From assembly GCA_947629665.1 (NCBI GenBank), contig CANREJ010000012.1, positions 1 through 44,067 on the forward strand: 44,067 nucleotides of DNA, written 5' to 3'. This DNA comes from an uncultured Clostridia bacterium (GTDB lineage Bacteria; Bacillota; Clostridia; Christensenellales; Borkfalkiaceae). Positions 3,650 through 40,535 of this stretch are shown one piece after another. Numbering within the stretch: position 1 is the stretch's first letter; the number at the start of each line of letters is the position of its first letter. Below the pieces are notes generated by a model. That model saw nothing but the letters and a program-made list of their open reading frames with translations, had not been told where the DNA came from and searched no databases. The position numbers and the translations under genes were made by a program.

Positions 3650-3728
3650 CGGCTGGTATTCCAATTAAACCGGACCGTTTAAAAAGTATAATATTTTATT
3701 ACTGCGGGTATCCCACGGAACCCGACGG
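3650..3728 (+). promoter_or_regulatory. Tandem hairpin RNA leader, candidate cis-regulatory element for the ECF/coaX operon
   Basis: Hairpin 1 (3650-3677) and hairpin 2 (3702-3728) both fold as 3 bp + single bulged A on the 3' side + 5 bp; the second overlaps the GGAGG Shine-Dalgarno. Confidence 0.6.
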
Positions 3729-3736
3729 AGGTCTTT

Positions 3737-4381
3737 ATGAAAGGTGAAAAGAAATTCTTTTCGGCAAGAAACATAACCTATCTTGCAGTTTTGTTGGCTC
3801 TTGTTATTGTATTGCAGGTATTCAGCGGCTACTTTAAAGTAGGCACAACGTCATTGAGCTTTGTGCTTGTGCCCATAGTTTTGGGCGGCATGATTCTCGG
3901 CGTTGCAGGCGGCGCGATTTTAGGCTTTGCGTTCGGTCTGGTAGTTATATTCGACGCCTTGGGCGGTTTGGATCCGTTTACCTTCCTGTTGCTCACCGCC
4001 GGCCCCGCATCATGCGTACTCACGGTAATTTTATGTATAGTCAAGGGCACCGCGGCGGGCGTCGGTTCCGCGCTGATATTTAAAGTTTTGTGCAATAAAA
4101 ACAAATATATCGCCACTTTTGTTGCTTCGGCGGCGGCTCCCATTTTAAATACGGGTATATTTGTTATCGGTGCGCTCTGCATGGGCGGCACGCTCAACCA
4201 AACGTTTTCCGCACTCGGTCTGGACGTTACGGGCTATTCCGTATTCTATATAGTTTTCGTACTCTGCGTTGGAATCAATTTCTTTGTGGAGTTTGCAATA
4301 AACCTTATATGCGCCCCCGCGATTTACATTGTGGATAACGCCGTAGGCAAGCGCATAAGGGCGGCGAGAGGAGCAAAATGA
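3737..4381 (+). CDS. ECF transporter S component (possibly pantothenate, PanT-like)
   Basis: 214 aa, multi-TM, 'NITYLAVLLALVIVLQVFSG...LVPIVLGGMILGVAGGAILGFAFGLVVIFDALGG'; substrate suggested only by overlap with coaX. Confidence 0.85.
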   Translation: MKGEKKFFSARNITYLAVLLALVIVLQVFSGYFKVGTTSLSFVLVPIVLGGMILGVAGGAILGFAFGLVVIFDALGGLDPFTFLLLTAGPASCVLTVILCIVKGTAAGVGSALIFKVLCNKNKYIATFVASAAAPILNTGIFVIGALCMGGTLNQTFSALGLDVTGYSVFYIVFVLCVGINFFVEFAINLICAPAIYIVDNAVGKRIRAARGAK

Positions 4382-5160
4382 TACTTTGTCTTGACGTGGG
4401 CAACACCAATATCAAATATGCCGTGTTCGACGGCCAAACGCTTAAACTCAGTTTCCGCATAGCAACCGAGCATAAGCGTACGTCCGATGAATACGGCGGC
4501 CAGCTCATATCCATTTTGGGCAACAACGGCATAGACCCCGCCAAAATTACGGGCGGCATAATTTCCTCGGTTGTTCCCCAGCTGGACTATACTTTGGACA
4601 GAATGTGCCGGACGTATTTGAAATTCAAGCCGCTCATGCTCGGTCCGGGGCTTAAAACGGGGCTGAACTTAAAGGTTGACGACGCAAAGGAAGTGGGCGC
4701 GGACAGGGTTGTAAACAACGTTGCCGCAGTAAAAAAATACGGCAGCCCGCTCATAATAATCGACTTCGGCACGGCAACCACTTTTAACGTGATAGACGAA
4801 AAGGCGCAATTCATAGGCGGGGTAATCGCCCCCGGCATAAAGGGTTCGCTGGACAGCCTTGTAAACGGAACGGCAAAACTGCCGAGGGTGGAAATAGAGC
4901 GTCCCCAAAAAGTTATAGGCACCAACACCATAACAAACATGCAATCGGGAATATTTTTCGGCTTTGCGGGGCTTGTCGAATATATCGTCAAGCGCATAAA
5001 AAACGAAATGAAGTGCCAAAACATAAAGGTTATAGCAACGGGCGGCTTTTCCGAAGTTATAGCAAAAGAAATTTCCTGCATAGACGAAGTGGACAAACTG
5101 CTCACTTTAAACGGCTTGAATTATCTCTATAATCTTAATTGCACGGAGGCTAAAAGATGA
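4378..5160 (+). CDS. coaX: Type III pantothenate kinase
   Basis: 'MILCLDVGNTNIKYAVFDG', 'VGADRVVNNVAAVKKYGSPLIIIDFGTATTFNVID', 'FIGGVIAPGIKGSLDSL', diagnostic of CoaX. Confidence 0.96.
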   Translation: MILCLDVGNTNIKYAVFDGQTLKLSFRIATEHKRTSDEYGGQLISILGNNGIDPAKITGGIISSVVPQLDYTLDRMCRTYLKFKPLMLGPGLKTGLNLKVDDAKEVGADRVVNNVAAVKKYGSPLIIIDFGTATTFNVIDEKAQFIGGVIAPGIKGSLDSLVNGTAKLPRVEIERPQKVIGTNTITNMQSGIFFGFAGLVEYIVKRIKNEMKCQNIKVIATGGFSEVIAKEISCIDEVDKLLTLNGLNYLYNLNCTEAKR

Positions 5161-7726: not shown

Positions 7727-7754
7727 TTGACATTGGAAAAATTGGGTGTATAAT
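7727..7754 (+). promoter_or_regulatory. Sigma-A-type promoter for the giant surface protein
   Basis: TTGACA (7727-7732), 16-nt spacer, TATAAT (7749-7754). Confidence 0.75.
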
Positions 7755-7819
7755 GAACTATGTATGAGTGTGTACGCGCGTATTATAATATGTTTCACGC
7801 GCACGCAAGGGGGAACTTT

Positions 7820-10624
7820 ATGTCAAAGAGTGCAAAGAATATAGTCATTGCAATATTAAGCGTATTAATGGCGGTGTGCCTCACATTGGGGCTAACGCTC
7901 TATTTCCGGCAATCGCCGGTAGCTTTGGCTTCGGCAGACCCGTCGGCACAAACCGTAATAACCACAGAGGATGATTTTACCTATTCGACGGTAAACGGCT
8001 ACACGGTAATAACGGGCCTTACAGATACTTTTAAGGGGACTTATAACTCCGGACCGGATACTTATAACGTCTGCCTGGAAATTCCGGAAACACTTAAAAA
8101 TCCCCACGGCGCAATCCCTGCAAACACAAAGGTGGACTACGTTCAAGACGGCGCTTTTAATGGCAGTTATAAAGAAAATAGCGGAAAAATCACATTCCGC
8201 ATAACCGACGTCCACACCCCGGAGTCGGTTTATTGGCAGTCCAAATCCACCAAAAACGAAGGATATTTCGACCTCGCCAACTATGATGATACGCCGTTTT
8301 TAAGCAATACGGTTGTAGAAAACTCCTTGGACAAAAATTACATAACCTGGGTAAAAATGCTCGGCGCAAATGACGGCAACACCGCCACTGTTTACAACAT
8401 AGCGGAGAACTTGCCTGCAAACTTTATTGTGCCTTCCCCCATGTGGTACGATAATGACAACGACGGCAAAATGGACTCAGACGAGCTTTTTGCCAACGTT
8501 GAGTTGTTGGTTGACGAAACTGTAACAAGCCAAAACAGTCCCAACTTTAAAAACATGGTTATATCTTCGGGAGTAACCCGCTTTTTCAGCCCTTTGGCAA
8601 AGGATAAAAGAATTAAGCTGGAAGATACTTTCCGTTCATCGGACGGTAATGCGGCAAATCTCACAGGTATGCACTTTGCAACGGGCAGAACCACCGTTTT
8701 ATCAATCTACGGCTTGGCGTTCCAACGCTTCACAAATTTAAAAACCATAACCTTATCCGCAGGCGTTCTGCTTGCGGACGGCGTTCGTGCTTTCCAGGGC
8801 GACACGGGAGTAGAGCAACTTACAATTGCCAAGGAAAACAACTCCAACGTTCCCTCATTCTATGTTGAGGGCGATAACGGTGCAATCTACACCGACGATT
8901 ACCGTTATGATTATTACGACACGGCGGGCTATCGCAAATATCTCGTTTGGGATTATGCAACCCGCTACGGCTATAAACTCGGCGACGACGCTTTTTGGAA
9001 CAATACGGAAAATTGGTACGGCTCAAAACCTGACGTAAGCGCTCCTTCAACCGTGTCTCTTGCCTCTAACACAGAACCTTCCCCCGACAGCGGCATAGCC
9101 ACAATTGCCATAAACGACATAGCAATAAGTGATGCAGATGCTGTTCTATGGTTTGACGAACTAAATAACCAAAAAGCGATAGGGCAACTTTCGTCAAAAA
9201 ATGGAATAGTTCTGTTAAATTATGAAATAGAATTGGGTAAGTTATCTTCCACTCCAAAATATGAAGGACATTCTGGTTATAAGATTGATAGTGGTACTAA
9301 CAGAATTACCCTTACGGTTAATACAGATATAGAGTTATATGCTGTTGCATATGGTGATACTTTTAAATTGAATTCAACAGGTACTACACTCGGCAATGTT
9401 GATTCAACAAATCCTAATATTTATGTGTTTACTTCTGGTACAGAACCTTATGTTTTAAAAGCGGGTAGTTATAATATTGAAAGAGGAGATTCAAACTCTC
9501 GATTAATTGCTCTCCTTGTAAAAATACACAGCAAAGACGGCATAACCGCCGACCCTTCAAGCGTTAAAATAAACAAGGGAAAAACGGCAGAAATAACCGT
9601 AACCGCAACAGGTACGGCGGCAACAGAGCTTGGTACTATCCCAGAGCAAGTAGAGGCGCTTGAAATTGAAGGTGCCGAACATGTTAGTATAAAAAAAGCA
9701 TATCATACCGAGTCAAAATCCTATACTGTAACCTTAACGGCAAATACAGTCGGCAAAGATACGCTTGCAATAACTTTGACCACTGATGGCGGTACGGCAA
9801 GATCACCGTATACAACACAAGTGGAAGTAGAGGTGGTAGACCCCGACGTTCCCACCGCGCTCCGTTTGAACAGAACAAGAACAGTCATAGAAAAGGGCCG
9901 GGCAACCGAATTTACTGCGGAACTTGTGTTCGGCAATTCTACTACCGTACCCGCAAATCTTTTGGAAATGCTTGGAAATGTAGAGTGGAAGATTGAAGAT
10001 GGAAGCGCAGAAACAAAAAATTGGCTCTCCCCCAATAAAGGCAGAGTTACGGTTTTAACGGCGGCCGAAAAAGGTTCCTACACATTAACGGCAACCTATA
10101 ATGATTTAACCGCGACATGCGAAGTAAACGTAGTTGATGGCGTTGACCGTGTGTTATCCGTATCCGATTACCCTCAGCCCCAATTTACCGTACACGACCA
10201 ATTTGTGGCGTATCAAAAGCTCATCTATGTTCCCCCTCAATTAAAGGGCGCAGACGGCGAACTCTTAACTGAATTTACATTCGACTATGCCGCAACTACC
10301 ATAATAGGCAACTCCTCGTTCACGGCAACAAATATACAGGTTATCATTATTCCCGACAGAATTGCCGAAATCGAGGAATATGCCTTCCGTTACTCAAACG
10401 CGCTCCGCGTTGTATACTTGCCTTCCAACGCCACCTACGGCAACGCGGTATTCGGCGAATATAAAGATTTTGTTCCCGGTCATGCGGGAAGTGAAATAAC
10501 GGACGTTGACGTTTCCAAAAAAACGGATAATGATTATTATTTCCGCACGGGCTATAAAAATCTTGACTTTTTGCTTATAGCTTCTTCCCGTCAGTCGTAT
10601 GACGCGCTCCTCGGCGCCGGATAG
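7820..10624 (+). CDS. Giant surface protein, N-terminal part (signal peptide, LRR-like/BspA-like segments, Ig-like domains); ends at in-frame TAG
   Basis: Signal peptide 'MSKSAKNIVIAILSVLMAVCLTLGLTLYF' preceded by an AAGGGGGA Shine-Dalgarno (track start 7760 unlikely). LRR_5-like 'VIIIPDRIAEIEEYAFRYSNALRVVYLPSNA'. Same frame as the next ORF. Confidence 0.85.
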   Translation: MSKSAKNIVIAILSVLMAVCLTLGLTLYFRQSPVALASADPSAQTVITTEDDFTYSTVNGYTVITGLTDTFKGTYNSGPDTYNVCLEIPETLKNPHGAIPANTKVDYVQDGAFNGSYKENSGKITFRITDVHTPESVYWQSKSTKNEGYFDLANYDDTPFLSNTVVENSLDKNYITWVKMLGANDGNTATVYNIAENLPANFIVPSPMWYDNDNDGKMDSDELFANVELLVDETVTSQNSPNFKNMVISSGVTRFFSPLAKDKRIKLEDTFRSSDGNAANLTGMHFATGRTTVLSIYGLAFQRFTNLKTITLSAGVLLADGVRAFQGDTGVEQLTIAKENNSNVPSFYVEGDNGAIYTDDYRYDYYDTAGYRKYLVWDYATRYGYKLGDDAFWNNTENWYGSKPDVSAPSTVSLASNTEPSPDSGIATIAINDIAISDADAVLWFDELNNQKAIGQLSSKNGIVLLNYEIELGKLSSTPKYEGHSGYKIDSGTNRITLTVNTDIELYAVAYGDTFKLNSTGTTLGNVDSTNPNIYVFTSGTEPYVLKAGSYNIERGDSNSRLIALLVKIHSKDGITADPSSVKINKGKTAEITVTATGTAATELGTIPEQVEALEIEGAEHVSIKKAYHTESKSYTVTLTANTVGKDTLAITLTTDGGTARSPYTTQVEVEVVDPDVPTALRLNRTRTVIEKGRATEFTAELVFGNSTTVPANLLEMLGNVEWKIEDGSAETKNWLSPNKGRVTVLTAAEKGSYTLTATYNDLTATCEVNVVDGVDRVLSVSDYPQPQFTVHDQFVAYQKLIYVPPQLKGADGELLTEFTFDYAATTIIGNSSFTATNIQVIIIPDRIAEIEEYAFRYSNALRVVYLPSNATYGNAVFGEYKDFVPGHAGSEITDVDVSKKTDNDYYFRTGYKNLDFLLIASSRQSYDALLGAG

Positions 10625-13600
10625 ATGTTCAACAGCGCGCAGACTGATTTCAGCAGTGCGTTGAAAGAGGCGGGAATAACAGGTATTCAGTACGATTATC
10701 GTGCCATGCTCACCTACGAGGTGGAAATTGTTTTGCAAACCGCCGAAGGCAACAATTCCATAACCGTACTCTACAACCAAATGTACTACAACACAACAAA
10801 CAATAACTATTATCTTTATTATAAGGACGGTTTGGACTATAAGCACGATAAAACGTGGACTGAGCTTGTAGGCACCGGCCCCGTTTATTACGGTAAAGTT
10901 CAAATAACCGAAGACAATATCAAAGATTTTATAACGGGCAATTTAAGCAGTGTTGATTATTATGTTGACAACAACAATTCTATCGGTGTATTCACAAACA
11001 CCGATACAGATATTATCGATAGCTGGTTGACATCCGAATCGCCGCGTGATATTACAGACCCCAACAAGGGTTTAGATATAGGTAAAGAAGAAGATAAAGC
11101 TAAATGGTTTACGTTTAACTATAACCCCAACACAAACCGTTTGCCCGCTTCCATAACCCTTGTAACGAAGAATGAAGGCGGTCAAATCAACTCCACGGAC
11201 GTGGCAATGCCCACCTTCCAGCCCATAGGCGAGCAGGTTCCCGACGGTGAAAAGGAATACCCCGAAATAACCGTTATGTTCGACTTTGCGGGCTATCCTT
11301 ACTCGCGTATATTCGAGGGCTACGACGCCAACCGCATGACCGCAGACTATACCTATACCGGTATTGGCGGACATGATGTAAACGGCGGCAAGAATAAATC
11401 CACCGAAAAATCTACCGCCCCCTACGACGCAGGCACATATACAATCACTTTAAAGGTAAATGGCGGGCTCCATTGGTCGGGCACCTACAACGGCTTGCCC
11501 ATAGCGGAAAACACCTCGTCCGGCGCAGTTGCTACCGCGGCGGCAGATTCCGAAAGTTATACTTTTATCCTCAACATACAAAAGCGCGAAGTTCCCGTTC
11601 CGGGCAACCAACAGGTACTCTACACCGAAGCTACGGGCGCGGAAGTCAATGTTTTTGAAAACAACGCCTACTACAAAGTCGTTAAATATTCCCAAATGAT
11701 CAAAGAAAGCGAGCAGATAGGCGACATGGGCGTCCTTGACGCAAGTGGCAAAATCCATCCCTATCAAAGGGGTTCCTATTGGGTTGCCTTGGAGCTTGTT
11801 GACGACTACAACCTGCAATGGGTTGCGCAGGGCAACGCCGTTGTTACTGAAAGCAACGAAGAGTATTTTAAAGCGATAGGCGAAAACATAGAAACAAAGA
11901 ATACGAAAGACAAATTTGTAACTTGCATGCTTGTAATTTCCGACGAGCCTCAAATCGAGATGCCCAGCTGGACTACCGACAATAGCATAGGTCATGCCTA
12001 TGAGTCTACTTTCACGGCGGAATACCGCTTGCAGGGTTATGATTTTATCGATATTTTCTATGGCTATCAAAGCAACAGCATGCGCGCGGAAATTACGGCA
12101 TATACCCCTGCCGGCGGCAAAGCGGCAACGGCATTGCCCAACTCCATACTCAATGCGGGCAAATATACTGTAATATTCCGGCCTGCTCCCGGCTATTCCT
12201 GGGCGGAAGGAACTTCCGGTTGCGGCCAGGAAATGACCGAAAAAGACCAGCAACTTATTGTAACCGTAAATATCACACAAAAGATACTTGAAACTCCCCG
12301 TCAGCAAACACAATTCATAACGGAAGGGAAAGATATTGAATTTGTTCCGGCTTCGGATAATACCTGGACGGTTGTAGGCTACGGCGCAAAAGACGCTGAA
12401 ATCAGTAGCGGCGAAACCACAACTTTACCTAAAAATGCCGAAGGCAAGTACGAAGCGGGCACATATCAGGTTAAGGTGCAGCTTACCAATTCACAGAACT
12501 ACGCATGGCGCACTCCTATGGAGGCGGGTTCCGAATTTGCGATAACCGAGCTTATTGTCCGCGACATTAACTCCCTAACAATCGAAGTTCCCACCAATAA
12601 GGAGGGTACCAAAGCCACATACACGGGCAGCGATTTGCCTTCTGCAAATTATATTGATTACGACACGTCTTTAAAGCGCGCCGTTTCCGAATTTACTTAT
12701 GATACTTATAACGCCGGCGCTTACGGTACGGAAACGGCCACGGCTAATCCCGCCACGATAAAAGATGCCGGCAATTATCAAATTACATTCACATTGCCCG
12801 GTCCCGTTTCCGGTCAGTCTTACAAATGGTCGGATGAAAAGGGCGGAGATACCCGCACGGTTGAGTTGACTGTTGAAAAGCAGGAAATAACCAACGTCCG
12901 CGCAAACGCCACCATAGATGTTAAACTTAACAACGGCGTGGCGTGTTTGCCCAACGGCTATCTCAACCCCGAATTATACACCGTTACATATGCGCATAAC
13001 GGAGAAGAAATCGGCACGCCGAACGAAGAGGGCGTCTACACCGTAACCCTTGAATTGACTTCGGCGGCTTACCGCAACTACTATTTCAGCGGCACAACCA
13101 GGAGTATAGAGGGCAAATATTATCCCGCTAAAATAACCTTAACATTAAATGTTGGGCTTACAAGCGTTACTGCGCCTTCTTCAAAAATTGGCGATTACAC
13201 CTACGACGGCACTTCGCACACCTTTGACGATGCGCTCAATATTCCCACAGAGAGCCAGGAATTTATTGTTAGCAAGACATATAGCACTGTAACCTATCAC
13301 AAGTTCGGCGCAACGGAAACCGAAACGCCCACCCAAATTCTAAATGCGGGCGTGTATGAGTTTACGTTCAAGCTCACAAGTACTGACTACGCCTGGAACA
13401 TTGCCACGGACAATACTTCCGCCAAGGTCAATGAGGATGGCAACCTTGTTGTTACAATTACCGTCAACCAAGCCGAGCTTGAAATAGAGCTTACTGCGCG
13501 GGGAAAGCCCTACGACGGCACCAATACCGTCAAAGTAACGGGCAACATAACCGGCGAGCTTTATAGTGTGGACGGTGTAAAAGACGTTGTTACCGTGGGT

Positions 13601-16600
13601 GCAATTACTGCGCACTTTGAGGATGCCAACGCAGGCGAGAATAAGACCGTAAACGTTGACCCCATAACCCTCGGCGGCGACAAGGCCTACAATTACACGG
13701 CAATTTATTCCGAAACCCTCACTGCAACTATTTCCGCGCTCGATATTGAAATCACGTGGGAGAATGTAGAAAACCTTGTTTACAATGGGGAAGACCAGGT
13801 TCCTACGCCCAAACTTCCCACCACGGGTATTCCTTCGGTTGACAACACTTCCGATAAGTTATCCGTTTCGGCGAACGTAACGGGAGCACATAAAGATGCA
13901 GGCACGGGATACACTGCAACGGCAGAGCTCGGCGGAACCGCCGCGAAGAACTACAATATCACCGGCAGTGGCACTCAAACCTATGCAATAAAGCAGGCAA
14001 CCATAACTTTGCCCACTCCTGATAGCGTAACTTATAACGGCACCGAGCAGAAAGCTACTGCACTTAATACTTTACAGGGCGCAAATGAAACACTTACACT
14101 CGGCACGGATTACACGGTAAACTATGCGGCAGAAGGTTATAGCGGCACAACTGCCACCAATGCAGGCGAATACACCGTAACCGTTACGCTTACCTCTGAA
14201 AATGCGCACAAAAACTACACCATAGGAAGCGGCGCAACCGTGAAGTTCATTATTGCCAAGGCAAAAATCACTTTTGATAAGTCGACGGTAAGCCTTACCA
14301 AAGAGAAAACCTATGACGGGAATACTTCCGTAACGGGCGTCAGTGCAGACGGCAATGAAATCGGCATTTCGGGCGTCAATTCCGAACAGGTAAAGGGCAA
14401 GTATACCGCGGTATATAACAGTAAAGATGTTAATTCAGCAAATACAATAACCGTAAAATTAACATTGCAGAACGCCGCCAACTATGAGTTTAGCGAAAGT
14501 TCGGACAGTAGTTATACGCTTAATGAGGACGGCTCCATAACCTGGACAATAAACGGCGTTAAAATAACGCCCAAAACCTTGGACGTTGCATTTGATTCTG
14601 ACAGTCTTACGCAGACCTACAAGGGTTCCGCGCTTACTCCCACGGCAACCGCAACCGGCGTAAACGGAGAAAAGGTCATTCTTGACATAACTTTGTCTGG
14701 CGGCGCAGGTTACACAGGCACGCTCACAGGTACGCAAGCAATCAACGCCGGCACCTATGGGGCAACGGCAACAATTAACGCCGCTTTAAGTGCGGAAAAC
14801 GCTTCAACCAACTACACGCTTAACTCCGCCACCACGACCGAAACCTTCACAATTGCCAAGGCCGATTTGACCGTTGCTGTTTCGGATAACTCAAAAACCT
14901 ACAACGGTGAAAATCAATACGCAACCGTAACCGTTACCGGAGTAAACGGTAACCTCGCTGTAAACAGCGATTACACCGTAACCTATACAGGCAGAGTTAC
15001 GAAAGGCACAACGCCCGTAAACGCTGACACATACGACGTAACCGTTGCACTTATCGGCACGGCTAACCAGAACTATAAGCTCGGCGGTACCACGACCAAA
15101 ACCTTCACAATTGCCAAGGCCGATTTGACGGTAAGCGTTAATAGCGTTGATAGGGTTTATAACGACTCAACCGATTATGCTTCAAGCTATATTTTGGAAT
15201 GTGCCGTTTCGGCAGAACAGGCCGATGCTTCAATTAAAGTATACGGTATAGCCATAAATGCGGGCACTTATAAGTATGTATTGTCCAATGAAAGCGGCAC
15301 AGGTTATACGCCTCTTGTAGTTTCTCTCGGCGATAAAAAAGGAGCCTTCGACCCTGATAACTATCAACTTAAATTGGGTGCTTACGTACAGTTCACGGTT
15401 GCTCGCGCTACCATAACGGAAATTGAGTGGCTCGTGGATGAAGCTGAATTGTTACACAGATACACCTATGACGGCATCGAACACACCGTTAAAGCCAAAG
15501 GTATAGCGGGCTCGGCTCCCGACGTTGAACTCACTGTGTTAGACAGCAAATATAAGGACGTTAAGGCCGAAGGCTACAAATTCACGGCAAAGTTACCCGA
15601 TGGCCAAACCAATTATAAATTTGTCGATGGGTTCGATACAACCATTACGGTAAATGTACAGCCTAAGGAAATAACCGTAAACATAACGGCCGAAAAAGAT
15701 TACGATAACACCACAAAGATAGGCAAATATACATGGTCATTGAACGATATTTGTGATGGCGACAAGGAGCAAGTTTCTGTTGGATCGGTAGAGGGTAACT
15801 ATACAGATAAAACGGCAGGTGAGCGCAAAACCCTCAATATCACAAAGGTAACCCTTACAGGAGATCGCGCCCATAACTACACGGTTGAACCTTTCACGGA
15901 GACCGCAGGGAATAGCACTATTAACCAAGCCAGGGTTACCGTAAAAGGCACGCTTGATTTGTCAAGGCTGAGCGCCGATTTGCAGAAAGAACTTGCAGAG
16001 TATCTCACCTACAATAACAAGGTAAAAACGATTGCCATAACCAACTCGCCTCTTTCCCAGGTTCCCAAGGTGGATAAAGACAACAATGAAATAAAAGGAG
16101 AGTATCTTGATGAAAACGGCGGCGTAGGTATGGGAGGTTCGGCACCTTACTTCTATCTGCCCTTGACAAGTCTTACAGCGTACGGTTTAACAATATCCAA
16201 CTTCTACGGTATTGACTATGTCGGCAACGAATCCGACGGCGCAATAATCACCTTCATGTTTGCAACCCATTCAACAGGCGCAGGTGATTATTCCAAGTCG
16301 AAGAGTAACCTGTATATAGAAGCTAATATCGCAGGACGTACCCCTGAACAAATAGCCGCAAAATCAAATTACAGCGGCACCTCAACGGGAACGCAATCGC
16401 ATGGTTGGGAAGAGGGCAGTTGGCGTTATGCGGATTTCAGCGGCTTGAACGAAGCCCAAATAACAATTTCAAAGTTAGCTGTTTCACTTGATTGGGCGCA
16501 CAATATAAGCGGAGCAACCGATATAGTGGATAAAGACACTCACGAATATAAAGGCACAGACTATTCTGGCGAATATAAGGCTTCCTTTGTATCAGGTGAT

Positions 16601-19600
16601 GGTCATATAATCGATTTTGGCGACTACGGCACATATGAAATTAAAAAGGGTAGCGTAACGGTTAAAGAAATTAAGGACGTCGGGACATACATTATCACGG
16701 CGAAACCCGATTCAACCAAACTTCACAATCATGATGTAACGGGTAATTTAACGCTTACCGTCATTATAGAGCCCTACACCGTAAAGCAGGCAGATATTCA
16801 AAACTCAATTGCCGAAGGTTGGATAAATAAGGCGTCAAACCTTTTGCTCGCAAGCGGTAAGTACGATATTGGCGAAGCGGGAAGTCCCAATATGGTTAAC
16901 GCAAACAATGCGTTTGCTTGGCATAGAGCCGGAACTGATGCGGAAGTAGTACTCAATGAAACCAATTTTACATCGTCGTTGGGTAACAGCAGTAACAAAA
17001 TGTTTAATGTGGAGGCGGGCAGCTATACAAATAATAAGCAAAAGTCAAGCGGCGCAGGTTATCAAAAGAGCTATACCGCAACCGTAAATCTTGTCCTTAC
17101 AGACAGCACTAATTATCGCTGGGATTCCGCGGGTTACACAATAGCTAATCAAACGGTAGCAGTTAGTGGCGATAAACTTGTGGTAACAAAGCAGTGGTAC
17201 CTTGTTGAGGGCAACAGCACAAAAACTGACTTGCAAGTAAACGGTTCAACTGGTTATACTTGGGAGTTCGGTGAAGCTGTTAACATTTCAGAGCCTGAAC
17301 TTATGCATGAACGTGCAAAGGCAAGCTATAAATTGGAGTATAGAGGCCCCGTTACCGCCGCAACCACAGTTTGGAACATTTCGTTCAACAGTTCGGTGAA
17401 TGAATTATCCGCATATCTCAACTCGTCAACGCCTGTGGGCACATATTACCTTACGCTCACCATAGAAGAGTATGATGACGGCGATAAACAATATCCCAAA
17501 ACCGATATTATTTACATAATAACTGTTACCCCCAAAGATATTTCGGAAACCGTGAATATCAACGGGAACTATGAATATGACGGCACCGTTAAATTGCCCG
17601 TAGATCACTTCGATGAAATATTCAAGTTGGCTCCTACGGTAACACGCCAAGGCATTTGGGCTGGCTTGGCTTATGACGCTTATTTCAAGGGTCCCGAAGC
17701 AAGCGATATAACTTTTGCGCCTGCACCCAATAATAGTGCAGACAAGACAACGTTGCAGTACTACACTCAGGAAGAGTTGGTTCATATAAACGGCGCACCC
17801 ATAAATGTTCGCCTCACCGAACAAGAAATAGATGGGAAAATTCAATATGTAGAAGTCCCCTACAACATGTACTATAAGTTCACGGCGGCAAACTACGAGG
17901 CTTACTACGGCGAATTTAAAGTAACGGTTACAAGGAAGGTTATTGCCCCTAAGCTACAATCAACTGACGACAGAGTGCAGGTGGACAACGTCAATGGCAA
18001 TGTAACCTGGGCTTACGGCACCGAAGTTACGAGAGACATACTTAATTTAACCTTTGGGATAGATGGCAACCCTTCCATAGTAATGCGCTATAAACTATAT
18101 CTCCAAAGCGATACAAATTTTACAACGTTAATGGGCGAGGGTGTAACGAATGGCGAGTTCAGGTTGCCTACAACAGCCGGCGTTTATACCTGGATATTTA
18201 CCTTTGATAATTGGAACGATAGCGGCAATCAAAACAACAACTATACCCTTGACGGCGCCAACGGAACCTTTGACGAAACGATAGATGGCAAAACGTATAG
18301 TAAGCCGTACTATAAGATTACGCTCACCATTAACCGTGCGAATGCAACAGTGTCGGTTTCAAACACCTCAAAAACTTACAGCGGTAGCAATCAATTCGCA
18401 ACCGTAACCGTTAAGGGAGTAAGCGGTAACCTCGTCAATAGCGATTACACCGTAACGTATTTGGATAGCGCAAACACGGCCGTGAGCCCTAAAAATGTAG
18501 GGGTATATAAAGTTCAGGTTAACCTTAAAGGTTTGGCGGCCACAAACTATAATATCATAGGTTACGATACGCCTGAGGAATTTGAGATAACTCCCGCAAA
18601 AGTAACCGTGCAGTATACAGGCGTTACATCTTTCGTTTACAACGGCGATGATTGGTGGAAAGAAATATCTTCCAAGTTTGAGGCAAATGTTATCAATTCA
18701 GCTGCGGGTCTGCCTGAAATAACCTATACTGTGCTCTATAACGGCGCTCCCGTTCAAAACAATGAAATTATAGAGGTTGGCACGTACTCAATAACCGCAA
18801 GCATTGCCGATAGTAACTATGAATTAAATCTTGCAAACGGCAATGAAATTGTAACAATCAGCATAACGGGCAACGTTATTGAACGCATAGAGTGGATAGG
18901 CGATACAACGCACACCTATAACGGTAGCAACTTTACCAAACCTGCGGCGGTTGCAATTCTCGTCAGCGGTGCAAGGGAAGAGCTTACTGTAAACGGAAAG
19001 GTCGGCAGTGCGGTAGGTAGCTATGAATTTAGCGTTGTTAAAACCGCCGACTATATCTTCGGCGACGGACTGCAACTTTCCTTCACGGTAACCGTTAAAC
19101 CCGCGCAGGTAAGCATAGCCAAGGCGGTATTCAGGGAAGTATATACCGGCAAAGCGCATGCGCCCGAAATAACCCTTAAATGGGACGATGACAATTTGGA
19201 TAAGAGTTATTATACCGTAAGCGGCCCCGCAAACGCCGTTAACGCAGGCACATACAGATATACGGTTAAACTTACCAACAGCAACTTTACGTTCGCATTC
19301 GGGAATAATACAACAACCGCCACGCTGTATATATCGGCGGCAAGGGTAAATATCGCCCAAACGGAATATACCGAAGTATACAGCGGCGAAGCCAAGACAT
19401 TGCCTCAGCTCGGTTTAAGTTGGAGCGGCGGTGCGCTTACGTCCAATGACTACACAATAAGAGGCACGCAGGCGATAAACGCAGGCACGTATACCTACAC
19501 GGTAACGCTCAAATCCAAGAACTTCACGTTTGCAGGCGGCAACAGCGCAAAAGTAACAATTGTAATAACCAAGCTCGGCGTTCAAAAGCCGGCAGAGTCA

Positions 19601-20437
19601 ACCGTGGAATACACCTATAACGGACAGGAGCAAACTTACGACGTTGCCGAAAACAAGTATTACAGCGTAAGCAACGCAACGCGCACCAATGCAGGCACGC
19701 AAAACGTATATATAAGCCTTGCGGATAAGCGCAACACCGTATGGGCGGACGGTACCACAAAGGACGTTGTCTATGTATTCACCGTAGCCAAGGCGGAGGT
19801 AACGCTCAACGTGGAGGACGCTGAATTTACCTACGACGGCAAAGGGCACGGAGTAACGGCAACGGCAAGCGTAGAAGGACTTCCCGTAGTTATAACCTAC
19901 AACGGCTATGCGGTTGAACCCGTAAGTGCGGGCACATATCAAGTAGTGGCTTCCGTTCCGGAGACGGAGAACTATCTCGGCGTAACTGTAAGCGGCAAAA
20001 CGCTTGTAATCAACAAAAAGGTAGTAACCGCAAGTTGGAACAGTACAACGTCGTATGAACAAAACGGAGCTGCGCAGACGCCATTTGCGGGCATAGAGGG
20101 CGTACCTGCGAACGTTGTAAAGGTAACGTACAGGAAAGGCGACGTCATACTCGGCGGAGCGCCCATTGTTGCGGGCAGCTACACTATAACCGTTGAGATC
20201 TTGAACCAAAACTATGAGTTCGGCGGCGAGAACGTAAAGACGTTCACAATAGCCGAAAGCTCACAGCAAACGAACCCCGGCACTCCCGGAAATCCCGACG
20301 TAAACGAACCAAGCGAACCCGCCGAAAACGGTTTCAATTGGGATGTGGTTTGGTACATTATGATAGCCTTATCTGCGGCATGCTTAATCTTTGCGATTGT
20401 AAGCCTGGTAATATGGTCCGGGCGGAACAGGGCTTAA
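10625..20437 (+). CDS. Giant surface protein, C-terminal part: tandem MBG/YDG-like repeats plus C-terminal TM anchor
   Basis: 3270 aa with about 20 repeats of the 'xYxG...NAGxYxxTV' type (e.g. TYNGENQYATVTVTGV, TYDGKGHGVTATASV), Pro-rich linker 'NPGTPGNPDVNEPSEPAENG', TM 'VVWYIMIALSAACLIFAIVSLVIWSGRNRA'. No Shine-Dalgarno or signal peptide at its own ATG. Confidence 0.88.
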   Translation: MFNSAQTDFSSALKEAGITGIQYDYRAMLTYEVEIVLQTAEGNNSITVLYNQMYYNTTNNNYYLYYKDGLDYKHDKTWTELVGTGPVYYGKVQITEDNIKDFITGNLSSVDYYVDNNNSIGVFTNTDTDIIDSWLTSESPRDITDPNKGLDIGKEEDKAKWFTFNYNPNTNRLPASITLVTKNEGGQINSTDVAMPTFQPIGEQVPDGEKEYPEITVMFDFAGYPYSRIFEGYDANRMTADYTYTGIGGHDVNGGKNKSTEKSTAPYDAGTYTITLKVNGGLHWSGTYNGLPIAENTSSGAVATAAADSESYTFILNIQKREVPVPGNQQVLYTEATGAEVNVFENNAYYKVVKYSQMIKESEQIGDMGVLDASGKIHPYQRGSYWVALELVDDYNLQWVAQGNAVVTESNEEYFKAIGENIETKNTKDKFVTCMLVISDEPQIEMPSWTTDNSIGHAYESTFTAEYRLQGYDFIDIFYGYQSNSMRAEITAYTPAGGKAATALPNSILNAGKYTVIFRPAPGYSWAEGTSGCGQEMTEKDQQLIVTVNITQKILETPRQQTQFITEGKDIEFVPASDNTWTVVGYGAKDAEISSGETTTLPKNAEGKYEAGTYQVKVQLTNSQNYAWRTPMEAGSEFAITELIVRDINSLTIEVPTNKEGTKATYTGSDLPSANYIDYDTSLKRAVSEFTYDTYNAGAYGTETATANPATIKDAGNYQITFTLPGPVSGQSYKWSDEKGGDTRTVELTVEKQEITNVRANATIDVKLNNGVACLPNGYLNPELYTVTYAHNGEEIGTPNEEGVYTVTLELTSAAYRNYYFSGTTRSIEGKYYPAKITLTLNVGLTSVTAPSSKIGDYTYDGTSHTFDDALNIPTESQEFIVSKTYSTVTYHKFGATETETPTQILNAGVYEFTFKLTSTDYAWNIATDNTSAKVNEDGNLVVTITVNQAELEIELTARGKPYDGTNTVKVTGNITGELYSVDGVKDVVTVGAITAHFEDANAGENKTVNVDPITLGGDKAYNYTAIYSETLTATISALDIEITWENVENLVYNGEDQVPTPKLPTTGIPSVDNTSDKLSVSANVTGAHKDAGTGYTATAELGGTAAKNYNITGSGTQTYAIKQATITLPTPDSVTYNGTEQKATALNTLQGANETLTLGTDYTVNYAAEGYSGTTATNAGEYTVTVTLTSENAHKNYTIGSGATVKFIIAKAKITFDKSTVSLTKEKTYDGNTSVTGVSADGNEIGISGVNSEQVKGKYTAVYNSKDVNSANTITVKLTLQNAANYEFSESSDSSYTLNEDGSITWTINGVKITPKTLDVAFDSDSLTQTYKGSALTPTATATGVNGEKVILDITLSGGAGYTGTLTGTQAINAGTYGATATINAALSAENASTNYTLNSATTTETFTIAKADLTVAVSDNSKTYNGENQYATVTVTGVNGNLAVNSDYTVTYTGRVTKGTTPVNADTYDVTVALIGTANQNYKLGGTTTKTFTIAKADLTVSVNSVDRVYNDSTDYASSYILECAVSAEQADASIKVYGIAINAGTYKYVLSNESGTGYTPLVVSLGDKKGAFDPDNYQLKLGAYVQFTVARATITEIEWLVDEAELLHRYTYDGIEHTVKAKGIAGSAPDVELTVLDSKYKDVKAEGYKFTAKLPDGQTNYKFVDGFDTTITVNVQPKEITVNITAEKDYDNTTKIGKYTWSLNDICDGDKEQVSVGSVEGNYTDKTAGERKTLNITKVTLTGDRAHNYTVEPFTETAGNSTINQARVTVKGTLDLSRLSADLQKELAEYLTYNNKVKTIAITNSPLSQVPKVDKDNNEIKGEYLDENGGVGMGGSAPYFYLPLTSLTAYGLTISNFYGIDYVGNESDGAIITFMFATHSTGAGDYSKSKSNLYIEANIAGRTPEQIAAKSNYSGTSTGTQSHGWEEGSWRYADFSGLNEAQITISKLAVSLDWAHNISGATDIVDKDTHEYKGTDYSGEYKASFVSGDGHIIDFGDYGTYEIKKGSVTVKEIKDVGTYIITAKPDSTKLHNHDVTGNLTLTVIIEPYTVKQADIQNSIAEGWINKASNLLLASGKYDIGEAGSPNMVNANNAFAWHRAGTDAEVVLNETNFTSSLGNSSNKMFNVEAGSYTNNKQKSSGAGYQKSYTATVNLVLTDSTNYRWDSAGYTIANQTVAVSGDKLVVTKQWYLVEGNSTKTDLQVNGSTGYTWEFGEAVNISEPELMHERAKASYKLEYRGPVTAATTVWNISFNSSVNELSAYLNSSTPVGTYYLTLTIEEYDDGDKQYPKTDIIYIITVTPKDISETVNINGNYEYDGTVKLPVDHFDEIFKLAPTVTRQGIWAGLAYDAYFKGPEASDITFAPAPNNSADKTTLQYYTQEELVHINGAPINVRLTEQEIDGKIQYVEVPYNMYYKFTAANYEAYYGEFKVTVTRKVIAPKLQSTDDRVQVDNVNGNVTWAYGTEVTRDILNLTFGIDGNPSIVMRYKLYLQSDTNFTTLMGEGVTNGEFRLPTTAGVYTWIFTFDNWNDSGNQNNNYTLDGANGTFDETIDGKTYSKPYYKITLTINRANATVSVSNTSKTYSGSNQFATVTVKGVSGNLVNSDYTVTYLDSANTAVSPKNVGVYKVQVNLKGLAATNYNIIGYDTPEEFEITPAKVTVQYTGVTSFVYNGDDWWKEISSKFEANVINSAAGLPEITYTVLYNGAPVQNNEIIEVGTYSITASIADSNYELNLANGNEIVTISITGNVIERIEWIGDTTHTYNGSNFTKPAAVAILVSGAREELTVNGKVGSAVGSYEFSVVKTADYIFGDGLQLSFTVTVKPAQVSIAKAVFREVYTGKAHAPEITLKWDDDNLDKSYYTVSGPANAVNAGTYRYTVKLTNSNFTFAFGNNTTTATLYISAARVNIAQTEYTEVYSGEAKTLPQLGLSWSGGALTSNDYTIRGTQAINAGTYTYTVTLKSKNFTFAGGNSAKVTIVITKLGVQKPAESTVEYTYNGQEQTYDVAENKYYSVSNATRTNAGTQNVYISLADKRNTVWADGTTKDVVYVFTVAKAEVTLNVEDAEFTYDGKGHGVTATASVEGLPVVITYNGYAVEPVSAGTYQVVASVPETENYLGVTVSGKTLVINKKVVTASWNSTTSYEQNGAAQTPFAGIEGVPANVVKVTYRKGDVILGGAPIVAGSYTITVEILNQNYEFGGENVKTFTIAESSQQTNPGTPGNPDVNEPSEPAENGFNWDVVWYIMIALSAACLIFAIVSLVIWSGRNRA

Positions 20438-37029: not shown

Positions 37030-37109
37030 AATCAATTGCTATAATATTTTAAATATTATATAATGGTAAAAGATTTTACTAAAACAAACCATTTTGGAGT
37101 TTTTTGTTT

Positions 37110-39326
37110 ATGAAACATAAAAGAATTGTCGGCGTCGCGTTGGCGTCGTCGATAGCATTGACCGCCGCATTTACGGGTTGTTCTCTCACAACTACCGACG
37201 TGGGGCTGGATATGAACAAGGTTGTAGCAACGGTAAATATATCCAACGCGGAAGGCACCGATCCCTTCGATACCGAACTTATAACTAACTTTAAGAGCGC
37301 CGTAGGCACAACCGAAATTTACAAGAGCGAGCTTGTGGCTTACTTTATAAACGTGGGCTCTTCCTACGTGAACAGCGGCTACTCGTATGCCGACGTGTTC
37401 AATATGTTGGTGGACGGGCTTGTGCAAAACGCCGTTATAACGCAGTATGCCGTAATGTATCTTTTAAACGACAAAGCGGGCACGGGCGCGGCTTCCACCG
37501 TCCTCGAAAAATATAACGCAAAGGAAACTTATATCGATAAGCTCGAATATCTTCTCACCGACGATAGCGCCGGTGCAGAAGACCCCGACAAGGATGTAAA
37601 GATTGCAAGATATAATTTTTACAGCTCCGTAAATTCGGCAATCGACTCCTATGAAACCGCTTTGCTTGAAGAAGAGGATGAAAACGCAGGTACGGAAACC
37701 CGCGACGTTCCCACGGGCGTCGATACCGAGGTTGAGGATTATTATCCCGCCGCAGCGGACAAGTCCTTGGACTACGGTATATACACGGGCTACAAGGGTA
37801 ACCTGATAGCCGACAGCGGCGTATACAAGGACGATATGCTCACGGGCTCCAACCAGATAACAAGGACCAAGGCATACAATAATTTTATCAGCGCGCTCAT
37901 AAACAACAATCTTGTGGATCCACAAAAGGACGCGCTACGCAACATTTACGGCGGAATAGACGGCGCGCACAAGGCCGAGGCGGGCATAGAGTATATGCAA
38001 AAGGAGTATATAAGCCAGCTTGAAAACCGCGTAGTCTATAAATATTACGATTTATACGAACAGGAGCAGGAGAGCAAGCTCACAGACGACAATAATTATG
38101 ATTATTTAAACGCCGTATATGAGAGCCAGCTCAACAGCCAGACGCAGAGCAACCAGAATTCGGGCTTCACAAGTACAATGGACAGCCTTTCCGATTCTTC
38201 CTTCATTCTCTACGCTCCCGACACGGAAGACGGCGGCACATACGGCTTTGTATACAACATATTGTTACCTTTCAGCGCAAAGCAGAGCGCCGCGCTCACA
38301 ACATTGCAAACCACGTATAAGGACGAAGACGAAGAGAGCGGCTACACCGCCGACTACTATATCAAGAGAAACGATTTGATGAAACAAATCGTTACCACCG
38401 ACCAGCGTTCGGCATGGTTCAACGGAACTACCGACTACGCATTCAACGCTTTGGAGGCGGGCATAGATTATTATAAGGGCACAGACGAAAACCGTTCCTA
38501 TCTGTTCTTTGAAAACAACCTTACAAACAACGGCCAATACGAAGAACTCGGCAAATATATAGGCAAGTATTCCTATAACGGCAAAGTTTACGAGCTTTCG
38601 GATGGCAAATACCAGCTTATTCCCAACAAACTTGATATCGACGGCATGCTTGCAGAGTTTAAGGCATATGTTGATTATGTACTCGGCGGCGAAAAGGTAA
38701 CGTTTTATAATTCTTACGACCCCGCAACGGTCAACGAGGCTTATTATACTTCGCTTACGAAAGAGAATCTCTATAAAGATTCCACTGCCGATAAAAAGGA
38801 AATCGACTACGGGAAATTCATTTACGCTTCGGGCGCCGTAGATCTCGGCGGCAGTACGGCTTCCAACCTTTTGTATGAGGGTAGCGAGCAATATAAAGCG
38901 CTTGCGGCGGTAAACGAACTTCAATATGCGTACACCACCGATACGGGTATTCTTTCCAAATATCTCGGCTATTCGGTGAATATCGGCAACAACACGGGCT
39001 ACATCAAGGAATTTGAATATGCAGCCCAGCAGGCAATAGCAAAAGGCGCAGGCTCGTTTACGGTTTGCGCGGGCGACTACGGCTGGCACCTGATATACGT
39101 TACCTACACTTATGGCAGCACAGGCGGCGCGGTTTATACTCCCGACTGGGCGGCAAACGTAAACGAAGAGGGCACGTTTGAAAATCTGTTCTACGAGTGG
39201 GTAAAGAGCAAGAATATATCTGAAATTTCCACAAAGAGAAGAACGCAAATAATGACGCAGTTCAATAAGGACAACACTGTCAATAAAATTCAAAAAGCCT
39301 ATCAGGACCTTTTGGATCTCGGCTGA
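37110..39326 (+). CDS. Large lipoprotein, divergent PrsA/SurA-like foldase candidate
   Basis: Lipoprotein signal 'MKHKRIVGVALASSIALTAAFTGC'; SurA_N-like 'YKSELVAYFINVGSSYVNSGYSYADVFNMLVDGLVQNAVITQYAV'; C-terminal 'FTVCAGDYGWHLIYVTYTY' reminiscent of the last parvulin strand; position right after mfd. Confidence 0.75.
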   Translation: MKHKRIVGVALASSIALTAAFTGCSLTTTDVGLDMNKVVATVNISNAEGTDPFDTELITNFKSAVGTTEIYKSELVAYFINVGSSYVNSGYSYADVFNMLVDGLVQNAVITQYAVMYLLNDKAGTGAASTVLEKYNAKETYIDKLEYLLTDDSAGAEDPDKDVKIARYNFYSSVNSAIDSYETALLEEEDENAGTETRDVPTGVDTEVEDYYPAAADKSLDYGIYTGYKGNLIADSGVYKDDMLTGSNQITRTKAYNNFISALINNNLVDPQKDALRNIYGGIDGAHKAEAGIEYMQKEYISQLENRVVYKYYDLYEQEQESKLTDDNNYDYLNAVYESQLNSQTQSNQNSGFTSTMDSLSDSSFILYAPDTEDGGTYGFVYNILLPFSAKQSAALTTLQTTYKDEDEESGYTADYYIKRNDLMKQIVTTDQRSAWFNGTTDYAFNALEAGIDYYKGTDENRSYLFFENNLTNNGQYEELGKYIGKYSYNGKVYELSDGKYQLIPNKLDIDGMLAEFKAYVDYVLGGEKVTFYNSYDPATVNEAYYTSLTKENLYKDSTADKKEIDYGKFIYASGAVDLGGSTASNLLYEGSEQYKALAAVNELQYAYTTDTGILSKYLGYSVNIGNNTGYIKEFEYAAQQAIAKGAGSFTVCAGDYGWHLIYVTYTYGSTGGAVYTPDWAANVNEEGTFENLFYEWVKSKNISEISTKRRTQIMTQFNKDNTVNKIQKAYQDLLDLG

Positions 39327-40270: not shown

Positions 40271-40535
40271 GCTGTGCAGTCTTTTTTGCCGGAATATGCC
40301 GAAGCGTAAACCTTACAGGCGGCTCCTTCAAAGCTACCTTATGGCACACCGCTAAAACTGTTTAGTGCTGCTATATCCCTATCCTGACACGGTTCGCAGC
40401 CTGCGGTTGCATAAGACCTTGATATCAACGCTCCTTATAAGGCGCGGCCTTCCACATATTCCGTCGGGAAAGACGGTCGGTCCTGCTATTGCGGATTGCA
40501 GGTACAGGGCACCGCAAACTCCCCACCCAGCACAG
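40271..40535 (-). ncRNA. ffs: Signal recognition particle RNA, large bacterial type
   Basis: Minus strand 'CTGTGCTGGGTGGGGAG..GCGGTGCCCTGTACCTGCAATCCGC' Alu-type domain, 'ACCGTGTCAGG-ATA-GGGA-TAT-AGCAGCACT' domain IV, closing 5' CTGTGC / 3' GCACAG pairing; TTGCAA-17-TAAAAT promoter upstream. Confidence 0.93.

Follow-up and report, generated by a model that had tools for sequence, protein, structure and literature searches.

Our results reveal a giant surface-protein gene interrupted by a single in-frame TAG, a feature that is real and whose explanation is most likely an ordinary one, not a novel mode of translation, namely a lineage-specific nonsense codon, possibly just a strain or assembly variant. 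In the window (the whole 44,067-nucleotide stretch of DNA analyzed here), a single reading frame spans 7820-20437 (12.6 kb), and its sole interruption is the TAG at 10622-10624. An ATG at 10625 lies immediately 3' of this codon in the same frame, and the terminal stop is a TAA at 20435-20437. These coordinates agree exactly with the earlier note on this DNA, which had described two same-frame halves parted only by the TAG. For annotation, the lesson is that 7820-20437 is one gene, not two. The parts of the locus are as follows.

7727-7754, forward strand: sigma-A type promoter (TTGACA-16-TATAAT; consensus match 12/12).
7807-7813, forward strand: Shine-Dalgarno-like AAGGGGG, read directly from the sequence, preceding the ATG at 7820.
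7820-10624, forward strand: upstream half (934 codons or amino acids), with a signal peptide and an LRR_5 block, terminating at the TAG.
10622-10624, forward strand: the in-frame TAG, which in the aligned relatives is always a sense position or a gap.
10625-20437, forward strand: downstream half (3270 codons or amino acids), with YDG and MBG_3 repeats and a C-terminal TM anchor, and with no signal peptide.

Pfam profiles exceed their curated cut-offs in both halves, which identifies the product as an LRR_5/YDG/MBG surface protein. In the upstream product, whose N-terminus is 59% identical to that of the relative G169, a signal peptide stands at the start (by inspection), and the LRR_5 block occupies residues 817-874 (E 9.1e-10, 39 bits, cut-off 27.7). 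The downstream product carries YDG (E 4.1e-24, 85.1 bits, cut-off 25) and MBG_3 (E 1.6e-15, 57.4 bits, cut-off 25), with four stretches each matching both profiles, and it ends, as does G169, in a TM segment and a short basic tail. From signal peptide through LRR block and repeats to TM anchor, the parts follow one another as in the uninterrupted relatives, and the families (LRR_5, YDG, and MBG_3) are the same as in the BspA-type LRR_5 and YDG/MBG surface proteins of gut Firmicutes. Unlike in those relatives, a stop interrupts this copy, and this copy alone, such that the signal peptide and the anchor, which belong to one frame elsewhere, sit on opposite sides of the TAG. The earlier note had assigned the signal peptide to the upstream half only and the TM segment to the downstream half only, as inspection confirmed, the relatives having the same ends. 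Its further description of secreted and anchored halves is an overstatement, since an export signal is missing from the downstream half, which, if made at all, would not reach the surface.

Relatives were sought by whole-genome searches at the family and genus level, together with a profile search of named genomes. The whole-genome searches returned seven relatives, each a single uninterrupted open frame of 2871-6393 amino acids (G169, 6393; G299, 6291; G294, 5120; G149, 5006; G296, 4845; G025, 3954; and, in another genus, G042, 2871). The profile search yielded 15 distinct close relatives (L068-L082), every one of which comes from metagenome-assembled Clostridia of rabbit type ("Lapin"); 7 of the 15 coincide with the records named above, and weaker matches that share the LRR motif only (L083-L089) were left out of the count. 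In all 15, the open frame spans the conserved LRR block and extends a further 648 to 3333 residues before a stop or the limit of the examined DNA is reached. In the alignments, none of the 15 has a stop at the position equivalent to the TAG, where sense residues or gaps stand instead. Specifically, the TAG falls within a variable-length linker between two conserved blocks, LIAxSxQxYDxLL and GIxYDYRxxLTYEVEIV, around which the closest four relatives show roughly 45-58% protein identity; L068 is gap-free at the TAG and carries a sense residue in its place, while L071 has a Met directly after the equivalent position. The alignment of orthologues that the earlier note had proposed thus returned a single frame in 15/15 and separate genes for the two halves in none. 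Because the orthologues are open across the site, the ancestral gene was one uninterrupted frame.

Within the genus, searches of other species for a near-identical copy found diverged relatives only, the genome searches found no second genome of the same species, and a pattern scan of viral contigs gave no match to the locus. Further, 12 window proteins were unmatched in the examined flanks of the relatives, so the position of the gene is not conserved within the flank range examined. The open frames of L068-L082 that are uncut by a contig end range from 2349 to 6393 residues and keep the N-terminal and LRR blocks, which suggests that the repeat stack has undergone expansion and loss. Within the upstream half, the stretch 9140-9526 has a GC content of ~0.32-0.36, compared with ~0.45-0.48 around it, and a different codon choice; its protein was unmatched elsewhere in its own genome and in 92 other genomes of the genus (single-segment search), and a weak alignment with L069 and L070 was obtained for a longer segment (residues 396-640). 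This stretch may be a recently exchanged domain.

Given that the ancestral gene was uninterrupted, a nonsense mutation or a strain or assembly variant is favored among the options that the earlier note had listed without choosing. Programmed readthrough is disfavored. Metagenome assemblies can contribute spurious nonsense alleles, and the TAG could be a sequencing or consensus error that is absent from the living population. The genome comprises 94 contigs (91.09% complete, 3.09% contaminated), the remainder of the 7820-20437 frame is intact, and the relatives, themselves metagenome-assembled genomes, are all uninterrupted, as such an error would have it. Nevertheless, the TAG represents a substitution-type difference instead of a homopolymer indel, and the flanks show no misjoin, with the alignment to relatives running on both sides of the TAG. 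We therefore hold an assembly error to be unlikely, though not negligibly so.

We consider it probable that a recent nonsense codon has arisen in this giant surface-protein gene, either fixed in the strain or present as a polymorphic allele of the population. The stop is lineage-specific, and orthologues exist that are intact and uninterrupted, which fits a recently interrupted gene. The downstream 3270 codons contain no stop, compared with 206 and 242 in the remaining two forward frames and ~94 expected from shuffles that preserve base composition per codon position; hence, the open downstream frame is not due to chance. From the lack of stops in this frame, it follows that the break arose recently, is unfixed, or is not real, or else that the frame is still selected; the last of these appears the least likely, because the TAG is not conserved. 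Of every possible single-base change to the downstream frame, about 3.2% would create a stop (transition/transversion weight 3), and the neutral decay bound is fewer than ~94 substitutions in 9.8 kb, about 0.96% per site. This bound on age comes from rough, simple counting; indels, which the count leaves aside, would make it tighter. As a counterpoint, an intact downstream frame of 9.8 kb is also expected from selection with readthrough.

The machinery for termination at TAG is normal in this genome. The release factor 1 gene, prfA, is intact (506.6 bits), and TAG ends 3 of the 31 frames in the window, including the stop at 10622-10624. The other two are tadA and the DUF4364 gene, in which the Pfam model ends 2-5 residues from the TAG, in support of the earlier note's statements that TAG is a genuine stop elsewhere and that genome-wide recoding is unlikely. 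The search for suppressors that it had suggested was run: the best PylS match in this 91%-complete genome scored 23.9 bits against a cut-off of 178.15, such weak matches being what ordinary class II synthetases would give, and no CUA anticodon was seen among the about 19 tRNA loci recovered, which is weak evidence given that the tRNA set is incomplete. In pyrrolysine amber decoding (pylTSBCD), TAG would be read as an amino acid, but here PylS falls below its cut-off and ordinary window genes end at TAG. No stimulatory RNA structure was found at the TAG, where the folding z-score over 10600-10720 was +0.44, no better than shuffles. Taken together, the prfA, PylS, TAG usage, and RNA folding results mean that the TAG should act as a stop here.

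These observations bear directly on programmed or constitutive amber readthrough, by which a minority of product would be full-length and anchored and the majority would be a secreted stub. The undamaged 3270-codon downstream frame is what readthrough would leave, and precedent exists, in that in-frame stops in bacteria have been reported to be common and sometimes read through, with retained constraint downstream (Belinky et al. 2021; PMC7918605). The present gene resembles those cases in that its in-frame stop is followed by a frame that is otherwise intact; however, their case rests on dN/dS below 1 among related genomes, whereas here one genome has the stop. The same study sees many in-frame stops as brief and probably deleterious over longer times (PMC7918605), a view that the present case fits. 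With the TAG missing from 15/15 relatives, no RNA structure, PylS below cut-off, and prfA intact, we regard readthrough as highly improbable. A more specific conjecture, in which the species keeps the TAG as a leaky stop, with most of the protein secreted and a full-length minority anchored, as a species-specific dosage switch, seems very unlikely.

Translation signals differ between the two halves. The start at 7820 has a purine-rich Shine-Dalgarno (AAGGGGGAACTTT), and the -35 and -10 elements of its promoter are kept upstream of four relatives (L068-L071). The sequence running directly into the ATG at 10625 (GGCGCCGGATAG) offers GGA alone, 3 nt away, and hence no usable Shine-Dalgarno, as the earlier note had observed. 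A separate promoter before 10625 was considered and rejected, the best promoter-like sites reaching 9/12 versus 12/12 for the promoter at 7727-7754. One could nonetheless suppose two cistrons, with ribosomes that stop at the TAG and reinitiate at the adjoining ATG to make a 3270-residue product, given that the TAG abuts the ATG and that coupled neighbors are common in the window (stops and starts overlap at 4378 and 5157, for instance). Against this stand the missing Shine-Dalgarno and signal peptide, the lack of any two-gene relative, and a product not exportable by the Sec route; further, the ATG is a mere in-frame codon, with L071 also having Met there. The cytosolic product that the earlier note had envisaged from reinitiation could occur, but bears no sign of selection, and a two-cistron arrangement seems very unlikely.

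Under the favored reading, a recent nonsense codon, the ancestral gene would have encoded a Sec signal, a BspA-type LRR_5 block, a long YDG/MBG repeat stack, and a C-terminal TM anchor, and would recently have gained the stop in the variable linker. Translation would then stop at 10624, and the signal peptide would direct export of the 934-residue stub, which, having no anchor, the cell would lose, while the 3270-codon remainder would be untranslated or yield a low-level cytosolic product. The break thus probably yields a secreted, unanchored stub. Other LRR matches are numerous in the genome (45 in G000), and this redundancy of LRR proteins may make the loss tolerable.

A comparable event is known from premature-stop alleles of Listeria monocytogenes inlA, in which the truncated InlA is secreted, not anchored (PMC6558679). 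In both, a nonsense codon parts the signal peptide and LRR region from the anchor of a surface protein, although protein and organism are unrelated and the likeness is one of the kind of event, not of family; the population data and phenotype belong to inlA, whereas here the comparison draws on the sequence of one genome. The InlA anchor is of the cell-wall type (sortase, LPXTG), unlike the TM segment and basic tail here. Large, redundant surface proteins are known to acquire nonsense alleles as bacteria evolve, and the importance of this allele is little; it would become important only if several strains of the species keep the stop yet still make the full-length protein.

Elsewhere in the window, a 740-residue frame at 37104-39323 adjoins mfd and was without a match in the Pfam search, and a large bacterial SRP RNA lies at 40272-40535 on the minus strand (Rfam RF01854, 165.9 bits). 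A "pan motif" RNA at 3650-3732 (Rfam RF01749, 47.4 bits) is directly followed by an ECF-transporter substrate component at 3737-4381 and then by a frame at 4378-5160 that we read as a coaX-like pantothenate kinase, which suggests a pantothenate-related operon with the transporter under the pan motif.
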